A DNA stretch of 64,000 nucleotides from Diplolepis rosae (taxonomy: Eukaryota; Arthropoda; Insecta; Hymenoptera; Diplolepididae): NCBI GenBank assembly GCA_030998225.1, contig JAPYXD010000734.1:806001-870000 (forward strand), given 5' to 3'. A program made the translations under genes and the position numbers. This document shows, in pieces, positions 14,538-36,739 of this stretch; within the stretch, counting starts at the first letter, position 1, and each line of letters opens with the position of its first letter. Under the pieces are notes generated by a model, which saw nothing but the letters and a program-made list of their open reading frames with translations, had not been told where the DNA came from and made no database searches.

Positions 14538-16067
14538 ACAATTAGAAATAGAGAATATTCAACTAATAATAAATGCCAAAATATCCCTGATCCAGTCCCT
14601 ACAGAACAAGAATTAGATAACACTCTTAAGTTAGATGATTCAAGTTTAGACAAGACTCTAATTAATATTCAAAGTATATCAAGTGAAAATTCAGAAAAAA
14701 CTAGCGGGTTTCATTCAAGTTTCTGTCCAGATTTAAGCATTGTAACAGGATCGAGTAATCAAGATCAAACTCTAACGAACGAATTATCTTATTTTGACGA
14801 ATTCAATTTGCTAAGCTCAACAGTAATAACAATAGATAATAAAACTTTGAAAGAAAGATTGGAAACCTCATTGGCACACGAATCTATAATTAGTAACAAC
14901 GACAGCGACGACGACAAAAGCGACACAGAAGTCATAACTCACATTTTATTGAGGGTTGCATGGAGGCAAAGGCAATGCTCCCGACACCTGCAGCTCAAGA
15001 AAACCTCGCAAGGTTATTAAGAGGTAAATTAACTGGAGAAGCTAGAAAATGCATTTTTGGTTCAACTTATGCAGCAATAGAAGAATTCATAGAAAAATTG
15101 AAAAGAGTATATGCCCCTGCGAAAAGCGTGTACCAGTTACAGGGAGAATTAGGTAATACATTTATGTGGGAATAATAATGCTCAATAATAATGGTCAGGT
15201 AGATAATAATTTTAAACTAAACCTTGAAAAGGACGTAATTCAATGTTTTATACGCGGTTTGCGTCCTGAGTTAGAAATTCGTGTTGAAGAAAAGGATACT
15301 TTTAAAGAAGTTATTAGCGACAGTATTGATATAGAACGAAGATTAGCTGCAAATTCCGCACTACGAAAAAATAAAAACATGGATTATTCAAAAAGTGACG
15401 AATCAACTAATAATAAAAATAATAAAACAACCCGATTTAACGTAGAACTTGATAACAAAACTATTTGTTTAATTTGTAAACAACCAGGTCACACAACTGA
15501 AAAATGTTTTTATTTAAGTAAAGCCCAAGAGGCAGTTCTTAATAATAAACAAAAAATTTTTTGCATCCTAACCAACAAAGATATAGTAATTTAAACGGTC
15601 AAAAAAGTAATAATAATAATTTTTCAAGAAACAATTACAATAATTTTCCGAATAACAATTTTTTAAGAAATAAAAATTATAATTTTAGTAACAATAACAA
15701 TAATAATTATAGAAACAATAATAATAATTTTTTACAACAAAGATACAACAATAATAATAATTTTCCTAGAAATGTTTACAATAATAACAATAGTGTTAAT
15801 AATAATAATAGACAATGGAATCCAGGACAGTATAAAAACTTTAACTCAGGACAGTTTCAAAATCGAAAGAAACCATATGAAAATAGATTTTTACAGAATA
15901 ATAACACTCAACAAAATTTAAATTATACTGAAAAAATTTGCAATTACTGTAAAAAACCCGGTCATTTAGTACGAGACTGCAAGATACGACCAAATAGCCA
16001 ATCACAAACAGCTCATCAGGAAAACTCTAAAGCTCTCTCCAGCACGGGTGCACTGAGGAAAGCATAA
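14538..16067 (+). pseudogene. gag: gag of element B (5'-truncated, frameshifted)
   Basis: Structural protein of the retroelement particle. The reading frame is open right up to the breakpoint at 14538, so the N-terminus is cut off rather than decayed. An acidic/Ser-rich N-terminal part (to about 14900) leads by frameshift into a capsid-like segment with ARLLRGKLTGEARK (about 14960-15175); another shift leads to 15166-15594 with a CCHC knuckle CLICKQPGHTTEKC; a third to 15561-16067 with an Asn-rich low-complexity run and a second knuckle CNYCKKPGHLVRDC. Two knuckles of the C-x2-C-x4-H-x4-C type are typical of nucleocapsid. At least three frame changes make it non-functional; any gag-pol frameshift site cannot be told from damage. 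Confidence 0.8.
15601..15830 (+). repeat. Asn-codon low-complexity tract (AAT/AAC repeats)
   Basis: Dense AAT/AAC triplets within gag encode a run rich in Asn with Phe, Tyr and Arg. Such prion-like composition in the nucleocapsid linker may help assembly; this is inference. Confidence 0.7.
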
Positions 16068-17250
16068 ATCGAGAACCACTGGCATCCACTTCTAACGATC
16101 ATACAACAACAACAATCAATATTTCAAAGTCCACTTCAATTCCATCAATTATAATATCAACGGAAGGTTTAAAAAATCCAACACACATGATGATTGATTC
16201 AATTCCTACTGTAGATGACGCTCCAATTTTTTCAAGACAATATAGATTTCCCCCAGTTCACAAGAAAGAAATTACAAGACAAGTCGATGAATTATTAAAA
16301 AATAAAATAATCAAGCCCTCACAATGACCATATAACCAGTGTGGATAGTTCCTAAAATACCTAATTCTCAAGGAAAAATAAAATGGAGAATGGTTCTTGA
16401 TTTTCGTAAATTATATGAAAAAACAATTGACGATTCGTATCCTTTACCTAATATAAACGATATACTTGATTCTGTAGGATCAGCAAAATATATTTCAGTG
16501 TTTGATTTAGCTACCGGTTTTCACCATATAAAAATGGACCCCAAAGACTCTCATAAAACCGCATTTTCCACACCTCACGGTCATTACGAATTCGATTGAA
16601 TGCCATTCGGTTTAAAAACTGCACCAGCCACATTTCATAGATTGATGGATTTAACATTAACTGGATTAATCGAAACGGAACTTTTTGTATATGTCGATGA
16701 CATAGTTATATATGCAAATACTCTAGAAGAGCACGAAATTAAATTTAACAATTTAGCAGAAAGACTTAGAAAAGCGAATCTTCATTTACAACCAGACAAA
16801 TGCGAATTTTTACGACCCGAAATAGGATATATAGGTCATACAATTGATAAAAATGGAGTACGTCCAGATCCAAAAAAGATAATAGCTGTAAAAAACTTCC
16901 CAGTCCCAAAACACAGAAAAATGTTAAATAATTTTTAGGCTTAGCAGGATATTACAGACGATTTATTGACGGACTTTCAAAAATTGCAATTTCTCTAAAT
17001 CAACTTCTAAAAAAAGATATACCTTTTAATTGGACAGAAAAACGACAAGCAGCTTTCGATATTTTAAAAGCAAAATTATGTGAAGAACCACTTTTACAAC
17101 GACCTGATTTTTCTCAACCTTTTATACTCACAACAGATGCCTCAGGATTTGCAATAGGAGGTATTTTATCACAAGGTAAAATAGGTAAAGATAAGCCAAT
17201 AGCATATGCTTCACGTAGTCTAAGTGATATTGAGAAAAAATTTGATACAT
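16068..17250 (+). pseudogene. pol: Protease stub and reverse transcriptase of element B
   Basis: Ty3/gypsy-type pol. A protease start (MMID, the lead-in to the usual D-S/T-G) at about 16185-16200 runs straight into the RT leader (APIFSRQYRFPPVHK), so most of the protease is deleted. RT follows with RMVLDFRKL, a GFHHIKM motif, MPFGLKTAPATF and the catalytic YVDD at about 16690. Stops occur at 16325 (TGA) and about 16597 (TGA at the Arg of RMPFG), and a frame change near 16925. Connection and RNase H sequence (LTTDASGFAIGGILSQG) follow until the solo LTR insertion at 17250. The RT is of the chromodomain-less, env-bearing gypsy type by similarity. Confidence 0.9.
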
Positions 17251-18677
17251 TGATATAAAACATTTGGCATTTAATAAGACTGTCACTTGCTCCTTTTAAT
17301 TCTAGGAACTCCGTCGACGGCTAACATAGCCAGACGGTATTGTTGGTAGCCAGCTAGCGCTTTCTCCTTGCGCGCCTTCTTCCTTCTCCTTGTCTCCTTC
17401 TTTCGCTCAAGCGCACTCTCCTTCTTTACTTATCTCCTCCTTTCGTTTTTCCCCTTTTCTTTTGATTGAAAGCGCTTCAAAACAGTCATTCTTTAAATTC
17501 CTTCGTTTTTAAATAAGTTGCAAATTATTTAAAAGCGTGGAAATTAAAGATTGATATCTAAAAATACATAGGCTTGGATTTTTAATTTAAGGATAATTAA
17601 TTTTACAAAATTAAATTTAATATTTTATTTTGAAACTAATAAAAGAAAAGTTATCTGTTTTAGCTTGGGGGATTCCTTTGAAAAATGCATTAATATTATC
17701 ATATTTTACTTTTATACATATATTTTACTTAATTAATTTAACAGTTATATTGTACTTTATTGATTTTATTTGAAGACAAATATTTTAAATGGAATTCGGA
17801 GAATTTCCTCAAGCTGGATTTAACCAGTAAAGACTCACCGCCTCGGGTTTCGAGCAACGAGCATTGGTCGTTGCTATGACGACGTTGACACGTCCGGCCA
17901 ATCGGATGCCTCAACTCGAAACTCGAGGAGGAGGAAATCGAGCCGATATAGGAAATCGTCAACGGAGAGTCAGTCGATCCTCGATCGAGACCTGGTACAG
18001 CAAAATTGATTTTACGACATGTGCTAATAATTAAAGTTGAGTTCTTTTAAACCCAGTGGCTTTTTTTTTAGTTCCTTCCTCCTACAAGCACGAGCGACGA
18101 GACCAGCGTTCCTGCGGATCCCGGAACTCTCCAGCCTCTCATCAAGATCCTTTCCGACTCCTGAGCCTGATCCAGTTGTCGCCTCCAGGATTGTACTGCT
18201 TCCGACTAGTGGTGTGTCGTGTCGTGTCGCGTAGTGCAGTGCGTAATTCGGTCGAACTCGTGATCTGTACTCAACGGGTGTCAAGAGGGCGGCGGGTAAG
18301 TCGACGGGTGTCGGACCTTTTAGGGCCATAACCGTCGATTTGCGTTGCCCTCACGGTCGATTGGGCGTGGGCTCTTTCGCCGCGCTCCTTGCCCCAACGC
18401 GATTCGAATTCCTGGCTAGTCGACAGGCGTCGAACTCTGCGAGGCCACGACCGTCGATTCAGCGCTTGGATCCTGCGCTACGCGCCTAAGTCATTTTCGG
18501 ATTCTTGATCGCGTATGATTTCCATCGGCCTAGTTATCTTCGCGATCGTGATTAATAAACGCATCTCTCTTTAATCCCTCTCAAACCTGGCCCTTCCTTG
18601 GCCGCGTAATCTAGTTCGGAAGCCTATTTAACGCCGTAACCCCAGAACGAACAAACCCTTAAAGCTCAGGGTTAACA
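17251..18677. mobile_element. Solo LTR inserted in RNase H of element B
   Basis: A 1427-bp insertion that begins TGATATAAAA and ends GTTAACA (TG...CA), flanked by the 4-bp duplication ACAT at 17247-17250 and 18678-18681. Removing insertion plus one ACAT restores the RNase H frame, so the borders are exact. The inside is GC-richer than its surroundings, has an AATAAA near 18553 and two degenerate ~46-base direct repeats starting GTCGAC (18300-18345 and 18419-18465). No coding region. A 4-bp duplication and TG...CA ends mean an LTR, left alone after LTR-LTR recombination. The open frames in it have no family resemblance. Confidence 0.85.
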
Positions 18678-19061
18678 ACATATGAGAAAGAAGCCCTTGC
18701 TATAATATTTTGTGTAACTTATTTTCGTCCTTATTTGTATGGAAGAAAATTTACTTTAGTGACTGATCACAAACCACTAGTTTGGTTTCAAAATTCTAAA
18801 GACCCTTGTTCACGAGTTTCACGTTGGAGATTGAAACTCGCAGAATATGATTTTGATGTAATTTACAAAGCAGGAAAAATGAATGTAAATGCAGACGCTC
18901 TCTCAAGAAACCCTATTGATGATAACAAAGAGAAATCAAGATATTTACAAGTTGATGACAATGATACTTTTATGACTTCTCAAGAAAAAATGTTTTCCAA
19001 GAAATCTTTTACAAGAAAAAAACAAGAAAACTCTAAAAATGAGGCAAGACCTTCAAAATGA
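18678..19061 (+). pseudogene. pol: RNase H C-terminal part of element B pol
   Basis: Continues the RNase H interrupted at 17250: YEKEALAIIFCV, YLYGRKFTLVTDHKPLVW, then SRVSRWRLKLAEYDFDVIYK and NVNADALSRNP, the hallmark end of Ty3/gypsy RNase H. It is in frame with the part before the solo LTR, showing that the solo LTR landed in an open gene. Confidence 0.9.
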
Positions 19062-20340
19062 AGAAACTTGAATCCAGAAATCGTACCAGACGACGTAAAT
19101 CGTTTTAGCGAAATTTCGGAAGCCCAAATATTAAATATCGACTCAAAAATCCCAGAATATTTTCAGGAATTTCTTAGTGAAGAAATATTTAGTGAGATTG
19201 GTAAGAATATTTTAAAATACACAAATTTATTAAAAAATATGGCTTCCAGACTTATTTTTATGAGAATATTTTTATTAAGTCCAATGTTTTCCAAAAAATA
19301 CTAAAATTTACCATGGAAAACTATTACTACAAGAGCTCAAAAGAGAATACAACAAGAAAAAGAAAAAAATTTGAATGGAAATGACACTCAAGAAAAATTA
19401 GACGAAAATTTTTCTTCTAAACCTCTTGTGAAAAAATCACGAGGCAGGCCAAGAAAAAAACTACTTACAAATTTGAAAAATATTCCCTCTCAAAAAAAAA
19501 GAAAGAGAGGTAGACCAAGAAAACAAATATATAAAGATGAATTACCAGAAATAAATTTGTAAAAGGGAAGCCGAACAAAAGTAGAATCAGATTTCGACTC
19601 TGATCCTGATTATTTAGATTATTTGAAACAAACTCAAGCAAAAAACAAAACGAAGAATGCCAAGAAGCCAAAAAATATTAATGGAATTAATTTGGAAGAG
19701 AATTTTGAAGATGATCTTGAAGACAATTTCGAACAGAATTTCGAACCGAATTTTGAAGAAAATTTTGATGACAATCTTGAGGAAAATTTTGAAGAAAAGT
19801 TTGCAGAAAACCAAGAAGAAAACTTGAAAGAAAAATTTGAAGAGCCTTATTTTAATGAAAATTTGAAACTAAACCGAAGGTCTCAAATAAATTCTGGAAA
19901 AAACGATAACGATCATGATAATTATAATCGTCCACCCCCAGAACCTTCTCCTATAAACTCTCAAACAGAAAAAGTTATAACAAGGAAAAATTTAGTTAAA
20001 TGTCGCGATCAATTAACTATGCGAAAAGATAATTATGTATATTTTGTTACAACAAATGGAACTCCTCGCGACAACGGATCAAAATCATTAGAAAAACGTG
20101 AAACTTTACCAAAATTTAAAAATTTACAAAAGGGAATAGCAAAAGAGATTAAAAAAGGAAACTACCACCATTTTGCACCTCCAATTGAAGAAGAAGCTAA
20201 GGACAATTTATCAGAAACTTTAAATAATATAAAATTATCAATTCACTCATTACATGAATTATCTCAAAAATTTAAATTACGATCAATTAGTATTTCTAAA
20301 ACTTCCAGAATTAATCATATACCTTGAGAAGAAGTGAAAT
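19062..20340 (+). pseudogene. Pol spacer with two AT-hooks and acidic repeats
   Basis: Between RNase H and integrase lies about 1.2 kb that is not standard pol. The part 19371-19562 is Lys/Arg-rich with two AT-hook-like cores, SRGRPRKK and KRGRPRKQ, about 22 residues apart. The part 19623-19900 has about ten degenerate copies of an acidic 6-8-residue unit of the form NFEENFE/DDLEDNFE. The part 20000-20327 leads into integrase. AT-hooks bind the minor groove of AT-rich DNA, so a role in target choice or preintegration-complex retention is possible; the acidic run could balance charge or bind histones. This is inference. Stops near 19059, 19303 and 19560 break the frame. Confidence 0.6.
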
Positions 20341-21319
20341 CAATTTTCGATTCAATTTTTTCAAATTCAACTACAAAAATTATTGTTTGCAATGGAATAA
20401 CGCAATATCCAACAAAGGAACAACGAACTCATTTAATTGAAGAAGCTCATTCTTCAAAACAAAAAATCCTATGGTAATCACCCACTACTGCTTTTGAAAA
20501 AATATCAATGGACATTGTTGGTCCACTACCAGAAACGAAATCTGGTAACTTATATATTCTAACGATACAAGACAATTTCACCAAATATTCTTTAGCAATG
20601 CCTCTTCCTAATCACCAAGCTAGTACGATAGCAGATGCTTTCGTGAAAAAATTTATTTGCATATTTGGATCACCGAAAGGAGTACTTACTGACCAAGGCA
20701 GAGATTTTTTAAGTAACCTATTAAAAAGATTGACAAAACGTTTTAGAATTAAACAATTTCGTACCACAGCTTTTCACCCTCAATCAAACGGGTCATTAGA
20801 ATGTTCACATCATGTTTTAGGAGAATATCTCAAACAATTTGTTGCAAAAAATTCAGAATGGGATGACTGGCTTGAATTATCGATGTTCTCATATAATACT
20901 AGTGTACATGAAGGCACAAAATGCACACCGTATGAATTGGTTTTTGGTAAACTAGCTCGTGAACCTTCCAGTGAACCTTTATCACAACAAGAAAAATTAC
21001 AAACATATGATGATTATTTAATTAATTTCGTAACACAACTACATGAAATGCGAACACAAGCAAGAGAGAATCCTATTTCAGCAAAAGAAAAATCGAAAAT
21101 ATATTATGATAAAAAAATAAATCCTTTAGAAGAAAAAATTGGAGATAACGTATTTTTATTAAAAGGAGGTAAAATTAAAAAGTTGACAGCCATTATACAG
21201 GGCCTTATGAAATATTGGAAGTATTAAGAAAAGGGAATGTGAAAATAAGCTATAAAGGCAAACCTACTGTAGTTCACATTAATAGACTAAAACGCTCACA
21301 TGTGAAAGTAAAAAATTAA
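20341..21319 (+). pseudogene. pol: Integrase of element B
   Basis: DDE integrase of Ty3/gypsy type. N-terminal zinc-finger region: only its first His-containing stretch (THLIEEAHSS, about 20430) remains and then jumps into the linker before the core, so most of the HHCC finger is deleted. Core: SMDIVGPLP (first Asp, about 20510), LTDQGRDF (second Asp, about 20690), FHPQSNGSLECSHH (Glu, about 20790). The C-terminal domain with GDNVFLLKGGK changes frame at about 21185 and ends with VVHINRLKRSHVKVKN at 21319. The core is intact from 20508 to about 21185. Without the finger it is unlikely to integrate. Confidence 0.9.
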
Positions 21320-21535: not shown

Positions 21536-21815
21536 ATGGAACAAATTCATCGCAAACGCATAGATGATCTCATTGAAACAGTTCCCTGTTTTATCGACAT
21601 GGTAGCTCTCTGGCCATACTTAATTCAAACTGGAATTTTTAAGCAAGACGACTGTAATATCCCCACATGGAGCAGAAACCTAAACAATCCAGAAATAATA
21701 AGACATTTTTTCAACAATCAAAACAAGAGGACCGGACGCAAACAAAAATTTAATTCTCAGTTTACGGCTATCAAATCACATTGTCATAGCCGACATGTTG
21801 GATATAATGAACTAG
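21536..21815 (+). pseudogene. CARD-like small protein encoded between pol and env
   Basis: About 93 residues, the size of one stand-alone CARD (caspase recruitment domain). The first frame opens with MEQIHRKRIDDLIE and then LWPYLIQTGIFKQDDCNI, resembling CARD helices 1-3 of insect initiator caspases (Dronc) or Apaf-1-like proteins. Near 21716 the frame changes by one base and the next frame gives TRGPDA followed by LILSLRLSNH and IADML, resembling the RGP-A-F signature and helix 5 of CARDs, then a stop at 21813-21815. That both halves match the same fold across a one-base frame change argues against chance. CARDs bind other CARDs; a free CARD could block apoptosome or caspase recruitment (inference). 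It is absent from element A. Alternatives: another death-fold domain or a chance match. The frame damage makes this copy non-functional. Confidence 0.6.
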
Positions 21816-21933: not shown

Positions 21934-23964
21934 ATGGGATTACGAGGCTTCCTTTTGGCACTGCTTACTTGCAACTTCAACTATATAACAACAGTCTACG
22001 CCATCATAGGATTCGATTGCGGTTCAAATCAATCAAATATTACGACATTATCTTTAATAGAGGTAGGAGAATGTGATCTACCTCGATCTCAAGTACATGT
22101 TGAAAGAACTTATATACAACTTTTACAATTAACTGGATTTCCAAATACAAAAGTAATACAATGCAAAATAGAAATTCGACGCGCCATCTCTCATTGTGGT
22201 ATGCATTCTCACAGTTCCATAGTTGCAAATGGCCACAGTGAATATATACATGATGTTACACGAGATCAATGTAATCAAATGCACACAATAGGAAGATTTT
22301 TAGTAACCCCTTCTCTTCAGATATCAAAGTTAAAAGTAAACGAAACTTCATTTCCTAGCGTTACTTTAGCAGGTTCTGTAACACCTAACGGAGACTGTAC
22401 TAGTACACAATTTTCTGACCCATATGGAACATGGAATAATGTCGTAGTCCAAGCAATATTCAAAATAACTTTAAAAGAACATTATGCTACTATTAATTTA
22501 AATTCAAATAAAATTCAATTAGGATCTGGAATAATATGCACACTTTCAGACACATTCTGTACAGACGTAGAATATGGACAAACATTCTGGGATACATTAC
22601 CTAATGACGTATGTAATTTTAACAAATATGAAATTACTTATGAAGGACCAGCAAATAAAACTTATGACAACACGACAGACAATTCTGAAACCTTTTATTC
22701 TTTAACGACTGAAGATATAACCTTCGTACTGGCTGAAAAAACAAGAAAACCAGTTTGCAGTTACGTTTTAATACAAACTGAACATCCAAAATTATTAATT
22801 TTTGAAACCAGACCTGGAAATTCATTTTTAGAAAATAAACATTTAGAAGTTCAAAATGTGGACATTTTTACATACGTTAACTCTAAATTCATATATGTGG
22901 AATGACACATACGCACTGAAATAAATAGACTTTATCACGACGTTCTTACTCAACGATGTATACTTGAACAGCAAGTTTTTAGAAATACATTAACCTTAGC
23001 AACCCAATCACCAGACGAATTTGCATATCATTTAATGAAAGGCCCAGGATATATGTCAGTAATTGCAGGAGAAGTAGTACATATCGTAAAATGTATACCG
23101 GTTGAAGTAAAATATCGCAAAACTGAAGAATGTTATCTACAACTACCAATATTTAGAGGAAGTCAACCCTTTTTCCTTTCTCCAGGAACTCATATATTAA
23201 CAAAATCCGGTATCCAAACAAATTGCAATTCTTTCCTTCCACCAATGTACCTTTTTGGAGAAACCTGGTACAAATTACTTCCAAATCCTGTCGAATCCAT
23301 AGCACCAACTATAGTTAAACCTCTCACAAAAGCAACCTGGAAATACACAAATCCTTCATCTTTAGCAACAAGTGGCATTTATTCTCAATCTGATCTTGAT
23401 AAACTGCGAGATCATATTATGTTTCCAGCAGAAAAACCGATGATTCTAAATTCCTTAGCTAGAGAAATAACAGGACATCCAACTATTAATCAAGGAATAT
23501 CATTAACGAATTTATTTAATGAAGATGTAATTGATAAAATTGCTGAATCCGCATGGGGTAGATTTTGGACAATTTTTACAAATTTTGGAACTACTAGTGC
23601 AGGCCCAATTGGATTAATAATAATAATTAGAGGGATTAAATTGATAGCTGATACCATTATTCATGGATATGCGCTACACAGATTATTTGGATGGTCTCTC
23701 CATCTACTAGGCGCCTTCTGGGATTCGGTCACTAACCTCTTATTACACTTAGGTACCCATCGACCTTCTGGACATCCTGCTGAGAGCCATCAAGAACTGC
23801 TAACAGCTTCAGCGCCACAAAGCTCGAAAGAGGCACCTAAAAGTCCATCGTATTACGCAAATACTACTACCGGTAAAGATCACAATAATACAAACACAAC
23901 TCTTTATCCTCACTCTGAACTAAAGGAAGAACTTAGTAGAACCCACTACTCTATCCAAATCTAA
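21934..23964 (+). pseudogene. env: First envelope glycoprotein of element B (one stop)
   Basis: About 676 codons with a single in-frame stop near 22903; otherwise open. Residues 1-25 form a signal peptide; the ectodomain has many Cys residues and N-x-S/T sites. Shared with element A env are SDPYG, TCDVE-like cysteine contexts, KGPGYM-VIAGEVVHI and LATSGIY. Near the C-terminus (about 23590-23680) a hydrophobic membrane segment is followed by a HRLFGWSLHLLGAFWDSV stretch and a Ser/Pro/Asn-rich tail. I consider it a chuvirus-like glycoprotein by remembered motif pattern, to be confirmed. It would mediate entry or cell-to-cell spread. Divergence from element A env (about half identical) shows these are different lineages. 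Confidence 0.75.
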
Positions 23965-23965: not shown

Positions 23966-25300
23966 ATCTTCAGAAAGTCGCATGTTCCATTTACAACCTT
24001 ATTAAACAAAATTATTCAACAAAGAGGAGATCCACCCCTCATTTATGAGATACTCATTGAACAAACCAATAATAATGAATGTCTATTTCACGTTAATTTA
24101 CAATATAAAAATTATATAATAATGAATAGTGGCAAAGATAAAGAAAATGTAAAGCAAAAGGTAGCACAAAATTTATATAATGCCTTAATTAATGAATCAA
24201 AGGAAACAAATCAAAACGTCCAACCAAATTCTATTAGTAAAAATTGCAAAAAATTAAACGAAATTTTCGCTCAAAATAAATTTGAGTATCCAAAATATAC
24301 AGTATTGCGAATAAAAACCTCATCAAAAGACTCTACATAGCAATTTGTTTCATTAACAACATTGAACAAATAGGAATAGCAAACTCGATAGTAACAGCTA
24401 AGGATTTTGCTGCCATAAAAGTTATTAATTCTCTTTCGCATAAAGACGAAAAATGTGAACTAAGTTTGATAAACTCACTAGAACATTTGCATGTAACAAT
24501 TCAAGAATCATCTATAAACGATCCAAAATCTTCAGCGAGTAGCCAAATAACAAAATCTATTACTTCAAATAACAACCGTGTTGAAAATACAAATTCATAT
24601 AAAATTAAAACAAATAATAATCATACTGCATCATCTTTCTCTACGAATAGCTTTAAAAAATGTTTTAAATACGGATATAGACCTCCCAACCAGTACAATA
24701 AATTCGAATATAAACATTCCATACCGATTCAGGAAATCAACTTTAATGGAGCATTTCTACGACGAGCCTACCCACGTACCAACTTACCAAAAAAAGATAT
24801 ACAGAACAGACTCCATGGGATTTTTAAATCATGTAGAAATTTTAAGAAACTTCACGATAAAATATGGACTGCGGTTACCGCAATATACAGTCTATCCTGA
24901 TCCGAATTCGAAAACAAACTCATTTTTTCTCGCACAAATTAATATAAATGAACATTTCGCAGAAAACAGAGCAGCTTTCAAATTACTATTACTACTAATG
25001 AGATCATACGATCTCTGCGACGAAAAATTGTATAATAATGATGATAAAATAATGCAAAAAACCAAAAATCAAAGTATTCAAACCGATCCAAGACCAAAAT
25101 TAATACCTTGAGAAAATTCCTGTAGATTTTGTAACACTCAAATGTATGCTACAAAAGAGTGCCGTAGACGAAATATTTTTAAAGTAGACAAATCAACCCA
25201 ATTTCCCCCTCCAGTTCCACCAAGAAACTCCTCAACATTTAGTAGACTTTTTTCCCCTTTTCTTCAAAAAACTTCTAGACCTAAATCCAACCATATGTAA
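23966..25300 (+). pseudogene. Protein with three dsRNA-binding-like domains and a zinc knuckle
   Basis: Three dsRBD-like units in a row. Unit 1 (about 23995-24215): FTTLLNKIIQQRGDPPLIYE, a central strand FHVNLQYKNYII and a C-terminal helix VKQKVAQNLYNAL. Unit 2 (about 24255-24440, frame change near 24320): KLNEIFAQNKFEYPKYTV, then AKDFAAIKVINSL. Unit 3 (about 24800-25000, another frame): ILRNFTIKYGLRLPQYTV, then AENRAAFKLLLLL. A Ser/Asn-rich linker separates units 2 and 3. A Cys-rich CRFCNTQMYATKEC motif follows a stop near 25110, then a Pro-rich tail to about 25300. dsRBDs bind duplex RNA; in insect viruses such proteins suppress RNA interference. The frame overlaps the env C-terminus and lacks a clear ATG. 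At least two frame changes and two stops. Confidence 0.6.
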
Positions 25301-25343: not shown

Positions 25344-26150
25344 CCTTCCGAGAAGCCTAATGAATTTCCTTAATCAACTAGCATCCAGACTGCATTTAAT
25401 TTTAATTCCACTCCTTTTCTCCAAAGCAGAAAAATACTTCATAGACTCACAATTTTCTCATTCTTCCGGGATTTATTTTTAACCAATTTCAAAAGTTCGT
25501 CTTTTGTCTGAAAAATATTATTTTATATCTTATATCGATATCTTTCAGGCAGACGTACTTGAATACAAAATAATAGATTTCTCACATAAATTATATGAAT
25601 ATTGCATACTTTCAAATATTGCCAATAATTGTAATTTATACGATCATCAGACACAACTTGATTTTATAGAACAACGAATCAACTATTTTCTTGAAGAAAT
25701 ATCATTTATATCTAGAGTAGCTCGTAATATCACGAATATTTCTAAAACTAATGATCAATTCTCGCAACAGATACAAAAAGTATATTTAGAATTGAGAATG
25801 AGACAGTAAACCTCCCTTTACTGGCCCAAAGAAAATTTATTTCTACTTCCAAACCCATTTTTTCAAAAAGTTACAAAATTTTCTTCAAAACTTGACAACA
25901 TTATGACCTACAAAAAATGGCAATTCTCATCTATATCGAATATTAGCAGCAAATTTCTCAATCTTTTCTTTTACTCCTTCACCAACTTACAGAAGCTATT
26001 ACCCATGCCGCAAGTAAGAAAGTAAATAAGTACTTGACTTTTCATAGATCATGAAGTTGATGTTGAAAACGTCTGAGAATCCATATTGTGAGAAGGTAAG
26101 AAAGGTAGCAAAACGACTTCTTCAGACTATAATAAATACTGAGTTATATT

Positions 26151-26835: not shown

Positions 26836-27434
26836 TTAACATTTGGAATTTAAGAGTTGTTCCAAGATCACATTATATGAAGGAATATAATTCTTTAAGT
26901 CTGTAATAACATTCAAGCAATTATTTCCTTCCTTTTTTATGTAAAAAATTTCCGCTAAGTATCTCTTAAAATAATTATTTTCTTTGTGTAAAATTAATAA
27001 GTTATCCCAGTCAAAATCATGGTCAAATTCCAATATATGCTTAGTAACAACGTTATGATATTTCTCATTTAGTTTAATATTATTACGATGTTCATTTCGT
27101 CTAGTTCGGAGCAATCTACCAGTCTGGCCTATATATGTTTTTTTACATTGTTTACAGGTGATCTTGTAAACCACATTGGATTGTTCAAAAATATCCAAGG
27201 GATCTTTACCAAGTTTGATCATAATGTCCAACTTTGAATCAATTCTAAAAATTGTATTTAAATTGAAATCAGATAATATTCTTTTTATTGAAAATGAGAT
27301 ATTACCAAAAAATGGAATAGATACCAGTCTTTTAGAATCAAATTTTTTATTATCATCATTATCATTATTATTAGTAAAATTATTGTTATTATTGTAATTA
27401 TATAAAATTCTACGTTGTATATGATAGTCTATGA
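26836..27434 (-). pseudogene. GIY-YIG endonuclease domain of Penelope-like element
   Basis: Minus-strand segment with VVYKITCKQCKKTYIGQTGR (the Y...YIGQT signature plus a Cys-x2-Cys in the first strand, as in Penelope endonucleases) followed by RRNEHR, the usual Arg/His region, to a stop at 26836. The part 27434-27232 links it to the RT domain (Asn-rich linker) after a frame change near 27430. The domain would nick target DNA; it looks intact but lacks a complete protein. Confidence 0.85.
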
Positions 27435-28098: not shown

Positions 28099-28204
28099 AT
28101 AAAAAAGGAAGGAAATAATTGCTTGAATGTTATTACAGACTTAAAGAATTATATTCCTTCATATAATGTGATCTTGGAACAACTCTTAAATTCCAAATGT
28201 TAAT

Positions 28205-28302
28205 AATAATATTTAAAGAATTTGAAAATCTTTCTGTGGAAAAAATGACGCTTTCGACTGCGCTGGGATTCGAGCCCAGGTCTTTCGATTGCCGGTCGAC
28301 TG
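28205..28302 (-). other. tRNA-like module within the Penelope-like element
   Basis: The minus strand contains CCTGGGCTCGAATCCCAG, which has the stem, loop and box B (GCTCGAATCC) of a tRNA T-arm, preceded by a rough anticodon-arm-like stem. A second copy of this ~90-bp module, with the same flank TTCAAATTCTTTAAATATT, is at 59165-59240. Too degenerate to be a tRNA gene; perhaps a tRNA-derived end. Confidence 0.4.
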
Positions 28303-28944
28303 CTAAAAAAATTTAAAAAAAAGAAAATTTCTTTTTCATTCTTTGTTTCCATGTCTTCATTAATTTCCTCCGTCTTATTATCAATTTATATTCTTATTTT
28401 ATATTCAATTTTAATTTCAATACGAATTTATTTAGTATTTATAATATATCTCATTTTACATTACATCACTTTCCATTTTCTTAGTTTAACATGTTACCTA
28501 CTCTTTGTTTGTTTATAAATTTCTGTTGTCACTACTCGTCTTTCAGTATAGCTTGATCTCTTGTCTCGTTAACAGTTATTATATATTTATTTCTATTTCT
28601 TTAATATGATGTGCAAAACAAATAGTTATTGTTACTTGTTTAGTTCTATTAGTCTCTGTCATTTTTACAAAAAAATCTTTTATTATTATAATGACCTCAC
28701 ATGGAATTTTAGGTAATTAATTTTTATGTTTATACTAGTTATTAATTTAATATCTGTTCAGCGGTTTTTTTTGTTAAAACTTTATGTTATTAATTTTATA
28801 TTATCCTCTCTAATCTCTTTCTTTCATACAGAGAGACGAATACTGAATATTTTTAATAATCATTCTTGACGCTTCACATATTTTCATTCCTGGAGGTGAC
28901 TGTTGATACACTCAAATTTTTACAACTGACTAATGTCAATTTTT

Positions 28945-28982
28945 GTCCTGATGAGGAAGTCGTACATGACTTCGAAACGTCG
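28945..28982 (+). ncRNA. Hammerhead ribozyme motif, right arm
   Basis: CTGATGAG (28948-28955), stem II GAAGTC/GACTTC around loop GTACAT, GAAAC (28974-28978) and GTC at 28979-28981, the expected cleavage triplet. All core bases are kept. Hammerheads in Penelope-like terminal repeats are an established feature of the class. Confidence 0.78.
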
Positions 28983-29951
28983 AATATAACTCAGTATTTA
29001 TTATAGTATTCATACTTGACTTTTATTATGACTATACCAATCCCATCTGCTGAAGAATTTCAATTATGTAAACCACATCCAATTCCAATACATCTCGACT
29101 TTAATACTGACGTAATGTCCTCTATTTACATAAAACCTCAAAATTCTTATCTCGCTATTTCTTCAAATAACCAATCATACTTTACAACAAATGAAAATGT
29201 CCTCAATGCATGTTATCAAAATGGATTCCAAACATTTTGTCACCCACCAAGATCTATATCTAATATCGATAACAATCCTATTTGCGAAACATCAATGTTT
29301 CTAAATTCTCAACCATACAAGTGTGAAATATTCACCAGTTTTAGTGAATAAACCTTTCTAACACCATTGCAATTTCATCATGGATGGCTATACTCAACTA
29401 TTTTCCCCCGACAAATTTTCTTATCATGTCAAAAAAACTCTAAGACCCTAATCACACTCCAAGGAATAGTAATTTTGCAAACAAAATCACGTTGCAATCT
29501 CGATTCATCGACTCCATATTACCATCTTCAAAACCATTTGAATATAATGGATAATTCAATTCCAGTTAGCAAATCAACCACTTCTCTTGCTATAATTTCA
29601 CTATTTTTATATAATATTTCCATTCAAGAGCCTCACTTACTAAAAAAGGTATTACTTCTTCTTCAGCAAAAAGAAGACATGCCATTATCAATCTTCGAAA
29701 ACCATGTCTTTATCCTTACAAAGTATGCAAACATTCAAAAACTCATTCCATCTATTTTTATTTCTAGTGCACATAAATTAACATTAGCACTAATCATTAT
29801 CACTTTACTTATGATTACAATTTTAGGATTATTACTATTGAAAATTCAAAAATTATCAAAAAAAAAACAAAACGCCAACACGTATAGAACTTACACAAAA
29901 AACTCCTCTAAGCTCAGTGACAAAATTTTCACTGGCCGACTTGACGTTTAA

Positions 29952-30249
29952 CTTTCGACCTTTCCTTTATTCCATCTTTCACCCTTTACTTTAATAGACT
30001 CGAAGTCAATTCACAAAATTTTTCAGATACAGGTACGTTCCGTCCTTACCTTCCTCAAAACCACGTGCATGAACGTTGTAAATCCTATACCGTCAGAAGG
30101 ACAGGTTTTGTACCCACGCCTTTAATATTTCTTACTAAAGAAAAAACAAACTGTAATATAAAAGTTGTTTTTCTGACGGAAAGTAAAATACTTTTAGCAA
30201 AATCTTTTACCTTGCATGATTAGAAAATGTATACAAAGTTATTATTCAA
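29952..30249. other. Gap between F-like env and first Cys-rich ORF
   Basis: AT-rich, no long frame. It contains ATTTTTCAG near 30020, another acceptor-like motif, and no other recognisable signal. Confidence 0.4.
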
Positions 30250-30300: not shown

Positions 30301-30708
30301 ATGATACCAACTCCAAGTGAACCTGTTGTTAACCATCTTGGACCAGTAGACGGTGTATGTCCGCAAGACTATCCGATAGCATACGCGCACTTATTACAGA
30401 GTTATTGCTTCGAACTAGAACCCTCAACATTGTTTTTATATTATAATCACCAAACCACAAAAAGATATTGTCAATTCTGTTTCGAGAAATTAGATCAGGA
30501 AACTCAAAATAACTGTGAATTTTTTACTTCATGACATTCCATTTGTAAATTGGAATGCATATATATGAATTGTTACGGTTGTCAAGAACTATTAATTACT
30601 CTGCGAAAAAGAGCAGCTGATTGTAGAGAATGTATCAAACAATATTTAAATAATAAATTCAAAATTAGTCAAGGAAACGAAGTTCTAGTAGAAAATATCC
30701 CTGCATGA
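30301..30708 (+). pseudogene. Cys-rich zinc-binding-like protein 1
   Basis: Unrecognised family. 135 codons from ATG to TGA with one internal TGA at about 30532, otherwise in one frame. The N-terminal half is neutral; the rest contains Cys pairs CQFC, then CKLEC, CYGC and CREC spaced like two four-Cys zinc sites. The spacing from CYGC through the Arg-rich helix to CREC matches the next ORF (CSLC to CVTC, both followed by a helix), so the two are probably diverged duplicates. A RING- or zinc-ribbon-like adaptor would fit; no function is claimed. Confidence 0.5.
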
Positions 30709-30847: not shown

Positions 30848-31279
30848 ATGCTGCCCCAAGAAAACGAAACAATCGAAGCAGAAGAAGTCCGAGCAAGCGA
30901 GCAGGATGTTCAGTCGTATTTTGAACATCAATTATGGTCGGAATACTGCTGCACAACCCTGGTCGAGAATTTCTACATGAATGTTCTTGAAAAAAAACAT
31001 GTTTGCGAGGATTGTTGGATGACAGAACTTAGCTTCTTTGAAACCGAAGTAACATTACCCGTCCGAATAGATCACATAGTTACTAAAGACTTATATTGTA
31101 CCTTAAAACTATCTAGCCTCGACTGCTCCCTTTGCAATACACAAATTTTTTACATGCGGCAAAGAGCAGTTTTATGCGTAACTTGTGCTGAACGTGTAAT
31201 TCATTTATACCAACAAGAAGCATTGTATAACGAAGTCGATTCCGAAGCATCCACCATTATTTATAATAACAACGAATAA
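30848..31279 (+). CDS. Cys-rich zinc-binding-like protein 2 (intact)
   Basis: A complete 143-residue frame, the only undamaged accessory ORF of element B. Acidic N-terminus, then CCTT, CEDC, a His-containing middle, and CSLC...RQRAVLCVTC, followed by an acidic Asn-ending tail. The Cys pairs could hold two zinc ions. It resembles the ORF just upstream in Cys pattern and in the Arg-Ala-Cys helix. No signal peptide or membrane segment, so probably cytosolic or nuclear. I do not recognise the family; possibilities are a RING-like E3 adaptor or transcription cofactor of viral style. Confidence 0.55.
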   Translation: MLPQENETIEAEEVRASEQDVQSYFEHQLWSEYCCTTLVENFYMNVLEKKHVCEDCWMTELSFFETEVTLPVRIDHIVTKDLYCTLKLSSLDCSLCNTQIFYMRQRAVLCVTCAERVIHLYQQEALYNEVDSEASTIIYNNNE

Positions 31280-31380: not shown

Positions 31381-33018
31381 TGCATATGGGTGATTTCATG
31401 GGAGATTTACAGTCAAAAATTTTTTTTCGACGAAACATTTTTTTTTGCCTTTTTACTTCGAAAATAATGGACACGTATTTTTTTTTCAATGTGATACTTG
31501 AAAATTTCGAGATATAATTCTTTTAATTTTGGCACTAGGGCAAAATTTTTTTCTTTCAACAGCTCATTGTAAAAGCAGTTTTGAATATAAAATGTAACCC
31601 TTGCACTTGAAATGCGCGAAAGAGTACAAGCTTTCAAAAAAGTTATAGCACACATTTCGTTGTTTTTTTTTGTAATAACAATATAGTACATTTTTATAAA
31701 CAATTGAATTTTTTTTAAATTTGGAACTAATTTTTTTCCGATTTTTTGTTTCTAAATCTTTTTTGGAGTTTTTACAATATGCATGCAAAATTTTGGAATG
31801 CAAAAATGAAAACTGTAGGTGTAATTAATTTATAAAATCTGCCCCGCGCGTTGCAACGAGCAACCTCGCACGCTGCAACTACGCTTAAGCTTGATTAGAC
31901 ATGCTGGGACTTAAAGCACGTGTGGCAGTGAATGCTGTGACCGCTGTTTTAGTTTTCTGTGAATGTTCCTCAAGTGTTCACCTATTTCAAATTAATACAG
32001 AAATGCCAAGCTCTCGATTTAAACATGTCTGCTGCAATCCGTTTAATAAAAAAAAATCATAGTGGAAGAAAGCAAAAAAAAAAATTGCGTCTTAAGTGTA
32101 TCATTTAGAGTAATTTTATCGTAAAACTTGACTCATCAATTCATCATTATAACTAATGATACGTTTTGAAATAGTCTACGCACTAGTTTGAATGTACTTA
32201 CAACAAAAATCTTCCATCTCCATTTCATTTGCTTCTATTTTGCATTGTGTACAAGAAACATCATCCGGTTTGAAAATGTTCAATTTTTCAAGTATCGAGG
32301 ACGAAACGCGACGCAAATTTTTTTTTGTTGCTTTTTTCCACTATGATTTTTTTTTATTAAACGGATTGCAGCAGACATGTTTAAATCGAGAGCTTGGCAT
32401 TTCTGTATTAATTTGAAATAGGTGAACACTTGAGGAACATTCACAGAAAACTAAAACAGCGGTCACAGCATTCACTGCCACACGTGCTTTAAGTCCCAGC
32501 ATGTCTAATCAAGCTTAAGCGTAGTTGCAGCGTGCGAGGTTGCTCGTTGCAACGCGCGGGGCAGATTTTATAAATTAATTACACCTACAGTTTTCATTTT
32601 TGCATTCCAAAATTTTGCATGCATATTGTAAAAACTCCAAAAAAGATTTAGAAACAAAAAATCGGAAAAAAATTAGTTCCAAATTTAAAAAAAATTCAAT
32701 TGTTTATAAAAATGTACTATATTGTTATTACAAAAAAAAACAACGAAATGTGTGCTATAACTTTTTTGAAAGCTTGTACTCTTTCGCGCATTTCAAGTGC
32801 AAGGGGTTACACTTTATATTCAGAACTGCTTTTACAGTGAGCTGTTGAAAAAAAAATTTTGCGCGAGTGCCAAAATTAAAAAAATTATATCTCGAAATTT
32901 TCAAGTATCACATTGAAAAAAATACGTGTCGATTATTTTCGAAGTAAAAAGGCAAAAAAAATTTTTCGTCGAAAAAAAATTTGTGACTGTAAATCTCCCA
33001 TGAAATCATCCATATGCA
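31381..33018. mobile_element. 1.64-kb inverted-repeat element
   Basis: Two arms of about 680 bp (31381-32062 and 32338-33018) are inverted copies of each other with some divergence, around a ~275-bp AT-rich middle. Outer ends are GCATATGG and CCATATGC. The apparent protein frames on opposite strands (31564-31803 and 32600-32848) are the same arm read twice. No transposase. It lies between the second Cys-rich ORF and the last dsRBD ORF of element B. No clear target duplication found. Confidence 0.85.
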
Positions 33019-34166: not shown

Positions 34167-34180
34167 ACTAGGGGGGGAGG
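34167..34180 (+). promoter_or_regulatory. Polypurine tract of element B
   Basis: ACTAGGGGGGGAGG directly precedes the TGTCACGTCC start of the 3' LTR. Confidence 0.75.
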
Positions 34181-34343
34181 TGTCACGTCCCGCGACGCAT
34201 TAGAATGTACTATAGGCATAGGCTAGGTCTAGAGAGAAATCTGGGGAAATTACTAAAAGAGAGAGAAAACCACCTATTGAAAAGAGAGGTATAACTACGT
34301 CACACGCTGCGGGAGACTGCGCAACGCGTGACGTCACCAAAAA

Positions 34344-34358
34344 ATATAATATAAAAAG
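34344..34358 (+). promoter_or_regulatory. TATA box of element B LTR
   Basis: TATAATATAAAAAGG about 165 bases into the LTR; a CRE-like TGACGTCA sequence sits just upstream near 34329-34336. Confidence 0.5.
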
Positions 34359-34568
34359 GACACGCCGCCAAGGGAAAACTAGTCTTGTGAGCAGAATTTA
34401 AGTGCGGCATTTTCTAAAAAACTAAAAAGGATTCTCAGCGTGAGACAATTATACCGTGTATTTAGACAGTGTAAAGACCCGAGAGTCATAAATTTACCGT
34501 GGTCCGTTTTACTATCCTTGAAGGGATCTTAGACTCAGTGCCAAAAAGGGTGAATAGTTGTTGCGTCC

Positions 34569-34642
34569 TTGTCACACCTGTGGGATATTCACTCTATCGC
34601 AGTCACACCTGTGGGAATCGCATCTCAGTCACGCCTGTGAGG
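34569..34642 (+). repeat. Three short direct repeats in the LTR
   Basis: GTCACACCTGTGGGA (about 34571), GTCACACCTGTGGGA (about 34601) and GTCACGCCTGTGAGGA (about 34628), spaced about 27-30 bp. CACCTG is an E-box core, so these may be regulatory sites. Confidence 0.6.
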
Positions 34643-34831
34643 ATTATACTTAAGGGAACTAATAAGGTACAGAAAATCTCTCTCTCTCTGTCTATTTCTC
34701 TGTCTCTCTCTCTCTGTCTCTCTCTTGTTAGTTTGTTATTTTACCAATTGCCCGTGACATATTGTATGCATCGATTAGTTATATGGATTGACTTTTATAT
34801 TTAACTTTATAATTTTATAATTTATAATTCA

Positions 34832-34837
34832 AATAAA
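34832..34837 (+). terminator. Polyadenylation signal of element B LTR
   Basis: AATAAA within the LTR, about 480 bases after the TATA box. Confidence 0.45.
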
Positions 34838-34861
34838 CTTAATTTCCCGAGTCGAACTATT

Positions 34862-35100
34862 GATTCTCTTTTGCTTCTCTTGATACTCTCTTGATTCTCT
34901 TTTGCTTCTCTTGATACTCTCTAGATTCTCTTTTGCTTCTCTTGATACTCTTTTGATTCTCTTTTGCTTCTCTTTATACTCTCTTGATTCTCTTTTGCTT
35001 CTCTTGATACTCTTTTGATTCTCTTTTGCTTCTCTTTATACTCTCTTGATTCTCTTTTGCTTCTCTTCATACTCTTTTGATTCTCTTTTGCTTTTCTATT
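34862..35100. repeat. ~31-bp tandem repeat TTGATTCTCTTTTGCTTCTC
   Basis: About seven to eight copies of a CT-rich 31-bp unit with ATACTCT as a second half, subterminal in the foldback element. Confidence 0.9.
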
Positions 35101-35111
35101 TTCTCTAACTA

Positions 35112-35913
35112 TTAGAGATTTTTGAACTTTTTTTTTTAATGAAAGTACATTTAAAGGACTATGGCGCAATTACCAAGGCGATTTAGTAGCGTTCGAATCG
35201 TCGGAGAGAGCAGACGTGAGTCATAATGCGTTCTGTGTACGCGAAACGTTTTAAAGCGGTCTTCTTGTGTACCCATCCAAAGGGACCACTTATGTCCTAT
35301 ACAGCCGCTGCTAAATACATCAAAAAGTCGAAATCGTTCGTGAACAAGTGGGTTGAGCGTTATAAAGCCAATAAAAAACACCCCGTGAAGGTCCATGTTT
35401 GGGGATGCTTCTCACAGCGCGGTTTTGGGTGTTTAGAGCTCTTCAACGAGAACTTGAATGCTCAGAAAATGCTCCAAATATATGAACGTGGTCTTCTAAG
35501 GTCTGCTACAAAAATGTTTGGAACCGATACGGCCGATTGGATCTTACAAGAAAATAACGACCCGAAGCATCGAAGCCGTCTCTGCACCGCCTGGAAAACA
35601 GAAAATGGCATCACAACTTTGGACTAGCCATCACAGACCCCCGATGCGAATCCAATCGAAAATGTCTGGAGTGTTTTAAAGAGGAAGCTTGCGGGAAAAT
35701 GTGTGTTCACGCTGAAACAGCTCCCGTAAAAAATCAGGAAGATATGGCAAGAATTACCAACGGACTACGCTGAAAAATTAGTGGAAAGCATGCCGAAAAG
35801 GTGCCACGCCATTCTGGACAACGATGGGGACTGGACTATCTATTAGATAGTAGCGCCGTAGTCCTTTGAGAGTACTTTTATTTAAAAAAAACAAAACGTT
35901 TCAAAATCTCTGA
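35112..35913 (+). mobile_element. Deleted Tc1/mariner-like transposon
   Basis: About 800 bp with ~57-bp terminal inverted repeats starting TTAGAGATTTTT and ending AAAATCTCTGA, flanked by TA at 35110-35111 and 35914-35915. The transposase is a fusion after internal deletion: an N-terminal helix-turn-helix (AAAKYIKKSKSFVNKWVERY, about 35300-35365), then VHVWGCFSQRGFG, a DDE-type QENNDPKH (about 35550) and, past a stop at 35626, PDANPIENVW carrying the last catalytic position. The catalytic first Asp region is deleted, so the element cannot move itself. Confidence 0.85.
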
Positions 35914-35974
35914 TAGTTTTCGAAAAATCGAGGACTCGCTCTTGTTGAACCCTTTTCATTCTGGTACTTGAGGG

Positions 35975-36410
35975 TATGTGATGCGTAATGACGTCACAAA
36001 TGACCAAACATTTTATATTATTTATATTCATCGGGTTGATTAGGACAGGAATGTAAATATAATCATGAAATTGTAGGCAACAATGAGGAATCCATCAAAA
36101 AATCAATCTCCGGTACCATTTGGATTTTTATTTCGAAAAATAAAATTTCTCAAAATTAATTTGTAGATATGTTGTTACCGGTATTGTAATTTGCACAGTA
36201 AAATGGATGGACTTTCCATCCATTTTACTGTCCAAATTTCAAAATTAATGTTTTCAAAACAAAATTCGACATGTACCAGACATTGATACTTTGATACATT
36301 CCTCATTATTTTCCAAAAGTCTGGTACTATATTTTCGTTTCTCTTTTAATCAACACGATAAATATAAATAATAATAAACGATTGCTAATTCCTGACGTCA
36401 TTAGGAATTA
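35975..36410. repeat. Long imperfect palindrome
   Basis: Sequence from ATGACGTCA near 35990 to ATGACGTCA-complement near 36400 folds on itself, centred on a perfect stem CAGTAAAATGGATGG/CCATCCATTTTACTG at about 36200-36230. A MITE-like foldback within the larger complex. Confidence 0.75.
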
Positions 36411-36739
36411 AATACTTTTAAAAATGGAGTATCATAGAGGAGGTAAGGAGAATCTTCGTTGCTACTCTTTAAGATCCTCCAAGGTGCCGAAACGGAAATA
36501 TCTGCAGGAGAAGAGCATCAACAGAGGATCAAAATTACATTGATTTAAACAGCTAATACGCCTCTTTTGATTCTCTCAAGTCCTCGAAAATGGAGCATCT
36601 TAGAGAATCAATAGAGAATCAATAGTTCGACTCGAGTTGTCTTATTTTATAATCATTGTGCCTGCGAGGATCATTCGATCCTAACTTAAAACGAGGAATC
36701 TTCGATCAAAGTAAGTATTTACGTACTTGTGACGTAACA

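Follow-up and report, generated by a model that had tools for sequence, protein, structure and literature searches.

Gene content of the locus

The window, a stretch of 64,000 nucleotides of the Diplolepis rosae genome (contig JAPYXD010000734.1, positions 806,001 to 870,000 of the forward strand), contains a retroelement, here called element A, whose genes form one series on the + strand between approximately 14.5 and 36.7 kb. This series carries gag, pol, two envelope genes and a set of accessory genes, and is followed by a polypurine tract (PPT) and a long terminal repeat (LTR). The gene order from gag to the PPT and LTR had been proposed in an initial annotation of the same DNA and was confirmed by the open reading frames (ORFs) and Pfam matches. 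The parts of element A and the inserts nested in it are as follows (RT, reverse transcriptase; dsRBD, double-stranded RNA-binding domain; element B, a simpler relative in the same window, described below).

14543..16067, + strand: gag with a CCHC zinc knuckle, 5'-truncated and frameshifted in the window copy (PF00098, E 1.3e-4)
16031..17258, + strand: pol, RT and the initial half of RNase H; the window copy has stops and an internal loss (PF00078, E 5.3e-18; PF17919, E 6.1e-23)
~17.26-18.66 kb: nested GC-rich insert in pol, ~1.4 kb
18663..19061, + strand: pol, other half of RNase H, beyond the GC-rich insert (PF17917, E 6.6e-19; the halves are adjacent in relatives)
19563..20327, + strand: pol insert between RNase H and integrase, present in 8/9 pol stretches of relatives
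20478..21310, + strand: pol, integrase core (PF00665, E 2.3e-13) and C-terminus (by similarity to element B)
21536..21812, + strand: CARD-like ORF, in two frames in the window copy (PF00619 in relatives, E 0.022, below cut-off)
21934..23964, + strand: Env1, Monjiviricetes/chuvirus-type fusion glycoprotein (PF24664), with one in-frame stop
23975..24711, + strand: dsRBD1, two dsRBDs and a C-terminal CxxC, frameshifted in the window copy (PF00035, E 2.7e-5)
24746..25297, + strand: dsL2, putative second dsRBD-type protein with a Cys cluster and a proline-rich tail (dsrm below cut-off in a relative)
25360..26125, + strand: Env2 (F-type, also F-env), N-terminal part, up to the Penelope-like insert (assigned by proximity to the C-terminal part in relatives)
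26126-29007: nested Penelope-like element in the F-env gene, with RT and GIY-YIG (the latter just below cut-off) on the - strand
29007..29951, + strand: Env2 (F-type), C-terminal part, with one in-frame stop in the window copy (PF12259 Baculo_F, E 3.5e-11)
30301..30708, + strand: Cys-rich protein 1 (Cys1), with one in-frame stop in the window copy (136-codon frame in 6/14 relatives)
30848..31279, + strand: Cys-rich protein 2 (Cys2), a possible paralogue of Cys1 (31 homologues)
31381-33018: nested palindromic element between Cys2 and dsRBD3, with arms of ~700 nt at 97% identity
33277..33724, + strand: dsRBD3, a dsRBD and a CCHC knuckle, 149 aa in relatives (PF00035, E 3.1e-5; 57 homologues)
34170..34180, + strand: PPT AGGGGGGGAGG
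34181..34849, + strand: 3' LTR, first part, with a TATA motif at 34350 and AATAAA at 34832, matching the 5' LTR in relatives
34850-36636: nested DNA transposon in the 3' LTR, with matching termini (CGAGTCGAACTATTGATTCTC)
36637..36739, + strand: 3' LTR, last part, ending in ACGTAACA as in relatives

The LTR in the window (34181-36739) has the termini TGTCACG...GTAACA and is split by the DNA transposon. A search of the window at E up to 0.1 gave no further copy of this LTR, and inside the element it hit only a 48-nt reverse-strand stretch (E 0.010). Two features of the window copy count against reading an element from this locus: its 5' LTR is missing from the window, the copy being cut at approximately 14543, where it abuts a 937-bp repeat, and most of its genes are broken.

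Among the nested inserts, the Penelope-like element has inverted arms of 704 nt that are 99.6-100% identical, while the DNA transposon carries a 31-bp minisatellite and a fragment of a transposase-like ORF with a weak helix-turn-helix match (E 0.0024, below cut-off). The coding strand of element A is strongly depleted of G within 25001-30000, with a GC skew of -0.35 in the interval 25-26 kb and of -0.45 in the interval 29-30 kb; the gag-pol region is A-rich. Biased base composition is known in some retroviruses, which the G-depletion and A-richness found here resemble.

Copies in the source genome

The source genome (757.7 Mb, 428 contigs) was searched for dsRBD3, which gave 1930 first-look candidates; 150 of these were scored and the match was confirmed at all 150. 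Relatives were all chosen via dsRBD3, and copies without this gene are therefore outside the sample. The best 20 places were taken with 1.5-kb flanks (L001-L020); since L001 is the window itself, the counts use 19. An identical score was common to 31 of the 150 scored places, which is a sign of recent amplification. Upstream stretches were obtained at 20 places (11 of the 31 with equal score and nine others), pol stretches at nine (eight of the 31 and one other), and end pieces at ten of the 31, of each of which only the 5' and the 3' piece were read.

Pairs of LTRs were found in 7/10 of the latter copies, with identities of 99.708, 98.003, 99.705, 99.451, 99.592, 100 and 99.858% over 557-751 nt; the 5' piece starts inside the LTR in six of them, and in the seventh (98.0%) the alignment slightly overruns the LTR ends. 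For two of the remaining three copies the initial 5' pieces were too short; further pieces show a TGTCACGTCC start for both, and these copies were not aligned as pairs. In the last one, L047, the only matches were one of 152 nt (94.1%) and one of 229 nt (78.2%), and another element ends just upstream of the copy. This other element, whose 3' end occupies positions 1 to ~1300 of the sense strand of L047, bears dsRBD3 and is more distant (70% identical), which hints at older subfamilies.

Both flanks were read in eight copies, and in seven of them the element lies between identical 4-nt target-site duplications (TATA, AATG, ATTG, TAAT, GATG, ATAC and GTAC). These seven different duplications speak against the copies being segmental duplications of one locus. 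In a ninth copy the 3' LTR end was not found. The LTR-to-LTR span is 17,586-17,762 bp in six of seven copies and 18,724 bp in the seventh, and all seven carry, 13-14 nt past the 5' LTR, the sequence TGGTGCATCGGCCGGGAA, resembling a primer-binding site (PBS), which we take to match tRNA-Gly.

The gene order recurs in the relatives. Env1 and F-env were found in order on one strand in 16/20 upstream stretches, 14 of which contain all five markers (Env1, dsRBD1, dsL2 and the N- and C-terminal parts of F-env) in order. Integrase, the CARD-like ORF and Env1 follow one another in 8/9 pol stretches, with RNase H also in order in 7/9. Further downstream, Cys2 and dsRBD3 are in order on one strand in 16/19 relatives, together with Cys1 in 15/19, and dsRBD3 is followed downstream by an LTR match in 18/19. 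Two of the duplication-bearing copies were read in mid-element, and both show the end of Env1 followed by dsRBD1; the middle of the others was deduced from the span.

Database protein searches gave 57 homologues of dsRBD3, 31 of Cys2 and 45 of dsRBD1. Contigs of identical size occur among the matches of dsRBD3 and Cys2 (3167 and 10089) and of Cys2 and dsRBD1 (7902); with sizes jittered by up to 15%, the chance of at least one such coincidence at a size of at least 5000 is 0.003 for the first pair of genes and 0.001 for the second.

Several observations go the other way. The eighth copy with both flanks read has unequal flanks (GATA vs TATA), and the match lists of dsRBD3 and dsRBD1 have no identical contig size in common. 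Some relatives also depart from the full arrangement: L023 and L075 contain gag only or represent a shifted or rearranged copy, L032 contains F-env only, L037 is without Env1, and L035 is without the CARD-like ORF, Env1 and dsRBD1. In addition, L033 lacks the N-terminal part of F-env and L034 lacks both dsRBD genes.

The LTR pairs, target-site duplications, near-constant span and recurring gene order indicate that the blocks move as one element, and it is nearly certain that a single LTR-bounded element carries all of them. The proposal of the initial annotation that both envelopes and the accessory genes belong to one element is thus borne out: the same set lies between two LTRs in the source genome, copies with both LTRs were found there, and gene blocks belonging to separate elements were not seen in the relatives sampled, where they stand together between near-identical LTRs. 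The complete element is approximately 17.6 kb long and is present in the same genome in many copies, some of them recent. The size of 14.4 kb first assigned to it is an underestimate, since the gag-to-RT interval of the window copy is ~0.8 kb shorter than that of the relatives L073 and L074, and has to be replaced by the value obtained from the LTR-to-LTR spans.

The full layout would be LTR, candidate PBS, gag, pol (protease, RT, RNase H, insert, integrase), CARD-like ORF, Env1, dsRBD1, dsL2, Env2, Cys1, Cys2, dsRBD3/CCHC, PPT and LTR. The window very likely holds a decayed, 5'-truncated copy of an env-bearing LTR retroelement of the Ty3/gypsy (Metaviridae) type, with a layout like that of complex retroviruses.

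Coding constraint, acceptor-like sites and predicted products

The ratio of non-synonymous to synonymous change (pN/pS) was calculated for nine genes, gag and eight envelope or accessory genes, with 7-17 open copies each; the frames used run from stop to stop above a length limit, a choice that is biased towards intact copies and takes in some codons beyond the genes. In the coding frame the ratio was 0.15 for Env1, 0.32 for gag, 0.33 for Cys2, 0.38 for dsRBD3, 0.41 for Cys1, 0.46 for dsRBD1, 0.48 for dsL2, 0.53 for the CARD-like ORF and 0.58 for F-env. The other two sense frames gave 0.75-2.21, higher than the coding frame for all nine genes. One antisense frame per gene was also low (0.21-0.70), as expected from the coincidence of third positions. 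Constraint is put in question by F-env, the least constrained gene of the set, by the CARD-like ORF, in which an antisense frame (0.44) lies below the coding frame (eight copies, a small set), and by dsL2, in which an antisense frame equals it (seven copies, also a small set). The values nevertheless give a signal of protein-level constraint on the nine genes, and this, together with the order recurring in relatives, shows that the gene series is not due to chance.

Acceptor-like sites were sought before the CARD-like ORF, Env1, dsRBD1, F-env, Cys1, Cys2 and dsRBD3, using the median of the copies in relatives. A YAG lies at most 20 nt before the start codon in 7/7 genes, vs 36% of 4195 background ATGs (P 8e-4), and a YAG preceded by at least six pyrimidines in ten positions in 6/7, vs 10.4% of background ATGs (P 8e-6); the background ATGs come from overlapping, related loci, which makes these P values rough. 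Less favourable are Cys1, with a YAG in 10/12 copies and a good pyrimidine tract in 0/12, and the window copy taken alone, in which the signal is weak (4/8, P 0.027; with a stricter tract 2/8, P 0.10). The pattern in relatives is the one expected of a retrovirus that makes several singly spliced messages. Spliced expression of several genes is likely. The full-length RNA would serve for the synthesis of gag-pol, and splicing to separate acceptors would produce the envelope and accessory mRNAs.

Closed frames, counted stop to stop in the relatives, were found for all ten genes and recur at constant lengths. The gag frame has 620-626 codons in 6/11 relatives with a match, and pol a closed frame of 1652 codons in one relative. 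The pol of L073, searched in pieces, matched RVT_1 (1.8e-36), RT_RNaseH (3.4e-39), Integrase_H2C2 (3.6e-21) and rve (5e-12). These domains follow the order RT, RNase H, integrase of Metaviridae; the order alone is compatible with BEL/Pao, and no BEL/Pao family is among those matched by the pol pieces in Pfam. The protease is the weak point of this polyprotein, since PF13975 reached E 0.022 and 15.8 bits in L073, vs a cut-off of 28.2; a protease remnant was read by eye at the start of the window pol. The insert between RNase H and integrase (~250 aa) is conserved; it matched nothing in the PDB and no Pfam family above cut-off. If gag and pol act as in other Metaviridae, they would drive particle formation, reverse transcription and integration.

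Both envelope genes encode predicted membrane-fusion proteins of recognisable families. The two pieces of Env1 on either side of the in-frame stop match PF24664 (Monjiviricetes_fusion, E 3.7e-111 and 1.5e-121); one closed frame of 769 codons was found, and the frames of other relatives run past the end of the piece. The N-terminal window piece of F-env alone has no Pfam match and no meaningful PDB match, while the C-terminal piece matches, besides Baculo_F, the fusion protein 9w4d in the PDB (E 0.0014), and the frame of a relative matches Baculo_F at E 2.9e-22. The two halves lie ~0.6-0.7 kb apart, without the Penelope-like insert, in 18/18 relatives having both, and a closed frame of 618 codons is present in 4/19 relatives. 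It is slightly favoured that both proteins work as envelopes. Both glycoprotein types belong to the membrane-fusion proteins, and particles may therefore be able to spread between cells; Env1, Env2 or both might coat particles that move, for example, from the gonad soma to the germ line, as in known errantiviruses.

The initial annotation had recognised two dsRBD proteins. Both stand above the dsrm cut-off of 23 bits: dsRBD1 with 25.1 bits in the window and 43.3 bits in P0090 (E 5.7e-11, two stretches), and dsRBD3 with 24.9 bits in the window and 29.4 bits (E 1.2e-6) in a relative. A relative's frame of dsRBD1 gave a dsrm match at E 1.8e-10. The closed frame of dsRBD1 has 262 codons in 13/17 relatives and that of dsRBD3 168 codons in 7/20. 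These two proteins may be related (hhalign E 7e-4, probability 26%). The count has to be extended tentatively by dsL2, a third dsRBD-type protein with a closed frame of 240 codons in 4/16 relatives. Its assignment is weakened by the dsrm match of a relative's frame (E 9e-4, 20.2 bits), which stays below the cut-off, and by the low similarity of the window piece to dsRBD1 (hhalign E 0.007, probability 5.5%); the window piece itself has no Pfam match.

Proteins with dsRBDs bind double-stranded RNA (dsRNA), and in insect viruses they commonly block Dicer-2, which makes silencing suppression the leading guess for their role here, although such a function and its absence appear about equally probable. 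The proteins would then shield the RNA of the element from Dicer-2 or from silencing of the PIWI-interacting RNA type, or act as RNA chaperones. An alternative might be a role in RNA packaging, given their zinc-knuckle-like Cys clusters.

The CARD-like ORF, called a CARD gene at first, recurs in relatives as a single frame of 99 codons (8/10). The CARD label is tentative. PF00619 was the top Pfam match in relatives, with 15.2 bits vs a cut-off of 23.9. Other results add to the doubt: the window pieces gave no CARD in Pfam or PDB searches, a relative's frame matched no CARD chain in the PDB, and the single-sequence structure model was poor (predicted local distance difference test, pLDDT, 43). 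If it is truly a CARD, the protein might modulate apoptosis or innate signalling, but such apoptosis or immune control is rather doubtful.

The two Cys-rich proteins match no family above cut-off in Pfam, either in the window or in relatives, and a structure model of pLDDT 40 was meaningless. Closed frames have 136 codons in 6/14 relatives for Cys1 and 164 codons in 4/16 for Cys2. The similarity of Cys2 to the second half of Cys1 was reached by 1/1000 shuffles and that to the first half by 78/1000, and hhalign aligned the two proteins at E 0.011 (probability 4%); they are possible paralogues, and might act as a pair of zinc-binding regulators.

Origin of the element and comparison with known systems

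The window also contains a second, simpler element of the same kind.

3332..6100, - strand: element B, integrase end, Env, PPT (3333-3343) and first LTR bases (from 3332)

Elements A and B have homologous integrase, Env and PPT/LTR start, and the accessory genes of A are absent from B. The Env of element B, which is of the chuvirus type, begins ~65 nt past the end of the integrase and is 48-54% identical to Env1, depending on the piece; ~150 nt separate it from the PPT and LTR start, whose homology to those of element A was not matched by any of 2000 shuffles (0/2000 reach the score). There is no CARD-like ORF between integrase and Env and no room for genes after Env, so that F-env and most accessory genes of A occupy an interval that is nearly empty in B. 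Element A is therefore best understood as a member, enlarged by further genes, of a gypsy lineage with a chuvirus-type env, and we infer that the layout of B is ancestral rather than reduced.

Element B is cut off on one side by tandem repeats and on the other by the 937-bp repeat that also abuts element A. This repeat, found at 2401-3308 and 13606-14542 (95.8% identity), was considered as an LTR of element A and rejected, since it does not match the LTR that starts at 34181 (E up to 0.1) and continues into 133-bp satellites. Arrays of these satellites lie at 1-2323 and 8669-13528, with the same flank after each; satellite and flank together are directly repeated over at least 3.3 kb with ~94% identity. 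Outside element A, GC-rich ORFs at 42327-43614 and 60116-61938 contain a CCHC motif and match RT weakly, neither of the two reaching its cut-off.

The broadest interpretation of element A is that of a complex insect retrovirus, perhaps the first. A Ty3/gypsy lineage would have arrived independently at a lentivirus-like genome with ten genes, expressed through several spliced mRNAs, and would still be amplifying in its host. Its products would include a viral CARD, as many as three silencing suppressors that bind dsRNA, and two functional fusion proteins differing in class, which might serve different cells or transmission steps. We regard this as a real possibility that falls somewhat short of being probable. 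The initial annotation had spoken of a complex retrovirus evolved independently in insects; this is a fair analogy as far as the ten genes and the acceptor-like sites before seven of them are concerned, and less so in the CARD label, which is below threshold.

Element A might alternatively be an exogenous insect retrovirus that was endogenised recently and was infectious as particles until then, or still is, rather than a long-resident retrotransposon. The two fusion proteins, the long open frames in some copies, the near-identical LTR pairs and the single score common to 31 of the 150 scored dsRBD3 places are all compatible with such an origin. However, the 1930 candidates (150 scored) and the diverged and decayed copies, including that of the window, suggest long residence, and no relatives were found in the three scans of viral contigs made; a recent endogenisation is unlikely. 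A scan of prokaryote genomes gave no relatives either.

It is less probable still that the extra genes, although part of a single element, are passenger cargo, captured from hosts or viruses and of little use to the life cycle. Their functions are predicted from sequence and their closed frames are often shorter than the usual length, but gag and the eight envelope and accessory genes have their lowest sense-frame pN/pS in the coding frame, and seven genes are preceded by acceptor-like sites. Finally, a fusion at the window locus only, between an element with gag, pol and a chuvirus-type env and a second element or viral insert carrying F-env and the accessory genes, might be suggested by the many nested inserts and by the Penelope-like element that splits the F-env halves, but is rejected as extremely improbable on the gene order of relatives (the same in 14-16/20 other stretches, with the F-env halves adjacent) and on the LTR pairs and target-site duplications in which the copies end.

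Element A, read as one LTR retroelement of the Ty3/gypsy type, can be compared with described systems. Genomes of Metaviridae contain one to three genes (gag-pol; gag, pol; or gag, pol, env) according to the profile of the International Committee on Taxonomy of Viruses (ICTV), whereas element A has ten. It shares with the family the LTR, PBS and PPT, since the PPT and an LTR are present in the window and LTR pairs and a PBS-like site in relatives. LTR elements usually have TG...CA ends and duplications of 4-6 bp, as stated in the available part of PMC12440569; the ends TGTCACG...GTAACA and the identical 4-nt flanks in seven of eight copies agree with this.

Errantivirus envelopes are of the baculovirus F kind (PMC12440569, as far as available). 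Element A resembles the Errantivirus gypsy of Drosophila in its LTR, PPT, CCHC gag, RT-RNase H-integrase order, post-integrase envelope and F envelope of the PF12259 type, but adds a second, unrelated envelope, the dsRBD proteins, the Cys-rich pair and the CARD-like ORF. Two envelope genes lie downstream of the integrase, where Errantivirus has its envelope; membership of the genus is not claimed.

Anakin, a BEL/Pao element of mosquitoes, carries a chuvirus glycoprotein (PMC7642597, as far as available). Like element A (PF24664) it has captured a glycoprotein of this type; its pol is of the BEL/Pao kind, and in the available part of PMC7642597 an F-type env, dsRBD genes or Cys-rich genes are not mentioned for it. 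According to the available text of PMC13172572, which cites Chary and Hayashi 2025, there are gypsy elements that carry type III fusion glycoproteins; they have in common with element A a gypsy pol and a type III envelope, and differ in that this text mentions only gag, pol and env. Endogenous viral elements derived from Jingchuvirales glycoproteins have been described beside Gypsy fragments in Hymenoptera and Coleoptera, with no clear capture by Gypsy (PMC10084718, in the part available). The glycoprotein type and the Gypsy neighbourhood are the same, whereas the glycoprotein gene of element A lies in copies with target-site duplications and LTR pairs. These two features document a chuvirus-type glycoprotein in a gypsy-type element, which was sought without clear evidence in the available part of PMC10084718 and is stated to exist in that of PMC13172572. 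In the available text of PMC12992720 the terms accessory, additional ORF, second envelope and class III do not occur. In a literature search of titles and abstract starts, neither two envelopes nor dsRBD genes were found for any LTR element of insects; Chary and Hayashi 2025, outside the reach of this search, may contain relatives.

If one element has maintained two unrelated fusogens and several dsRNA-binding genes by constraint, it would open to test whether transposons encode suppressors of small-RNA silencing, by which they are normally controlled, and why such an agent should need two envelopes. Elements A and B offer a simple-to-complex comparison inside one window. Complex retroviruses, i.e. 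lentiviruses, deltaretroviruses and spumaviruses, are known from vertebrates and have one envelope each. Element A is similar to them in its accessory genes and in the acceptor-like sites, which suggest several spliced mRNAs; the vertebrate viruses differ in having a single envelope and unrelated accessory proteins and belong to another family, so the likeness would be convergent.

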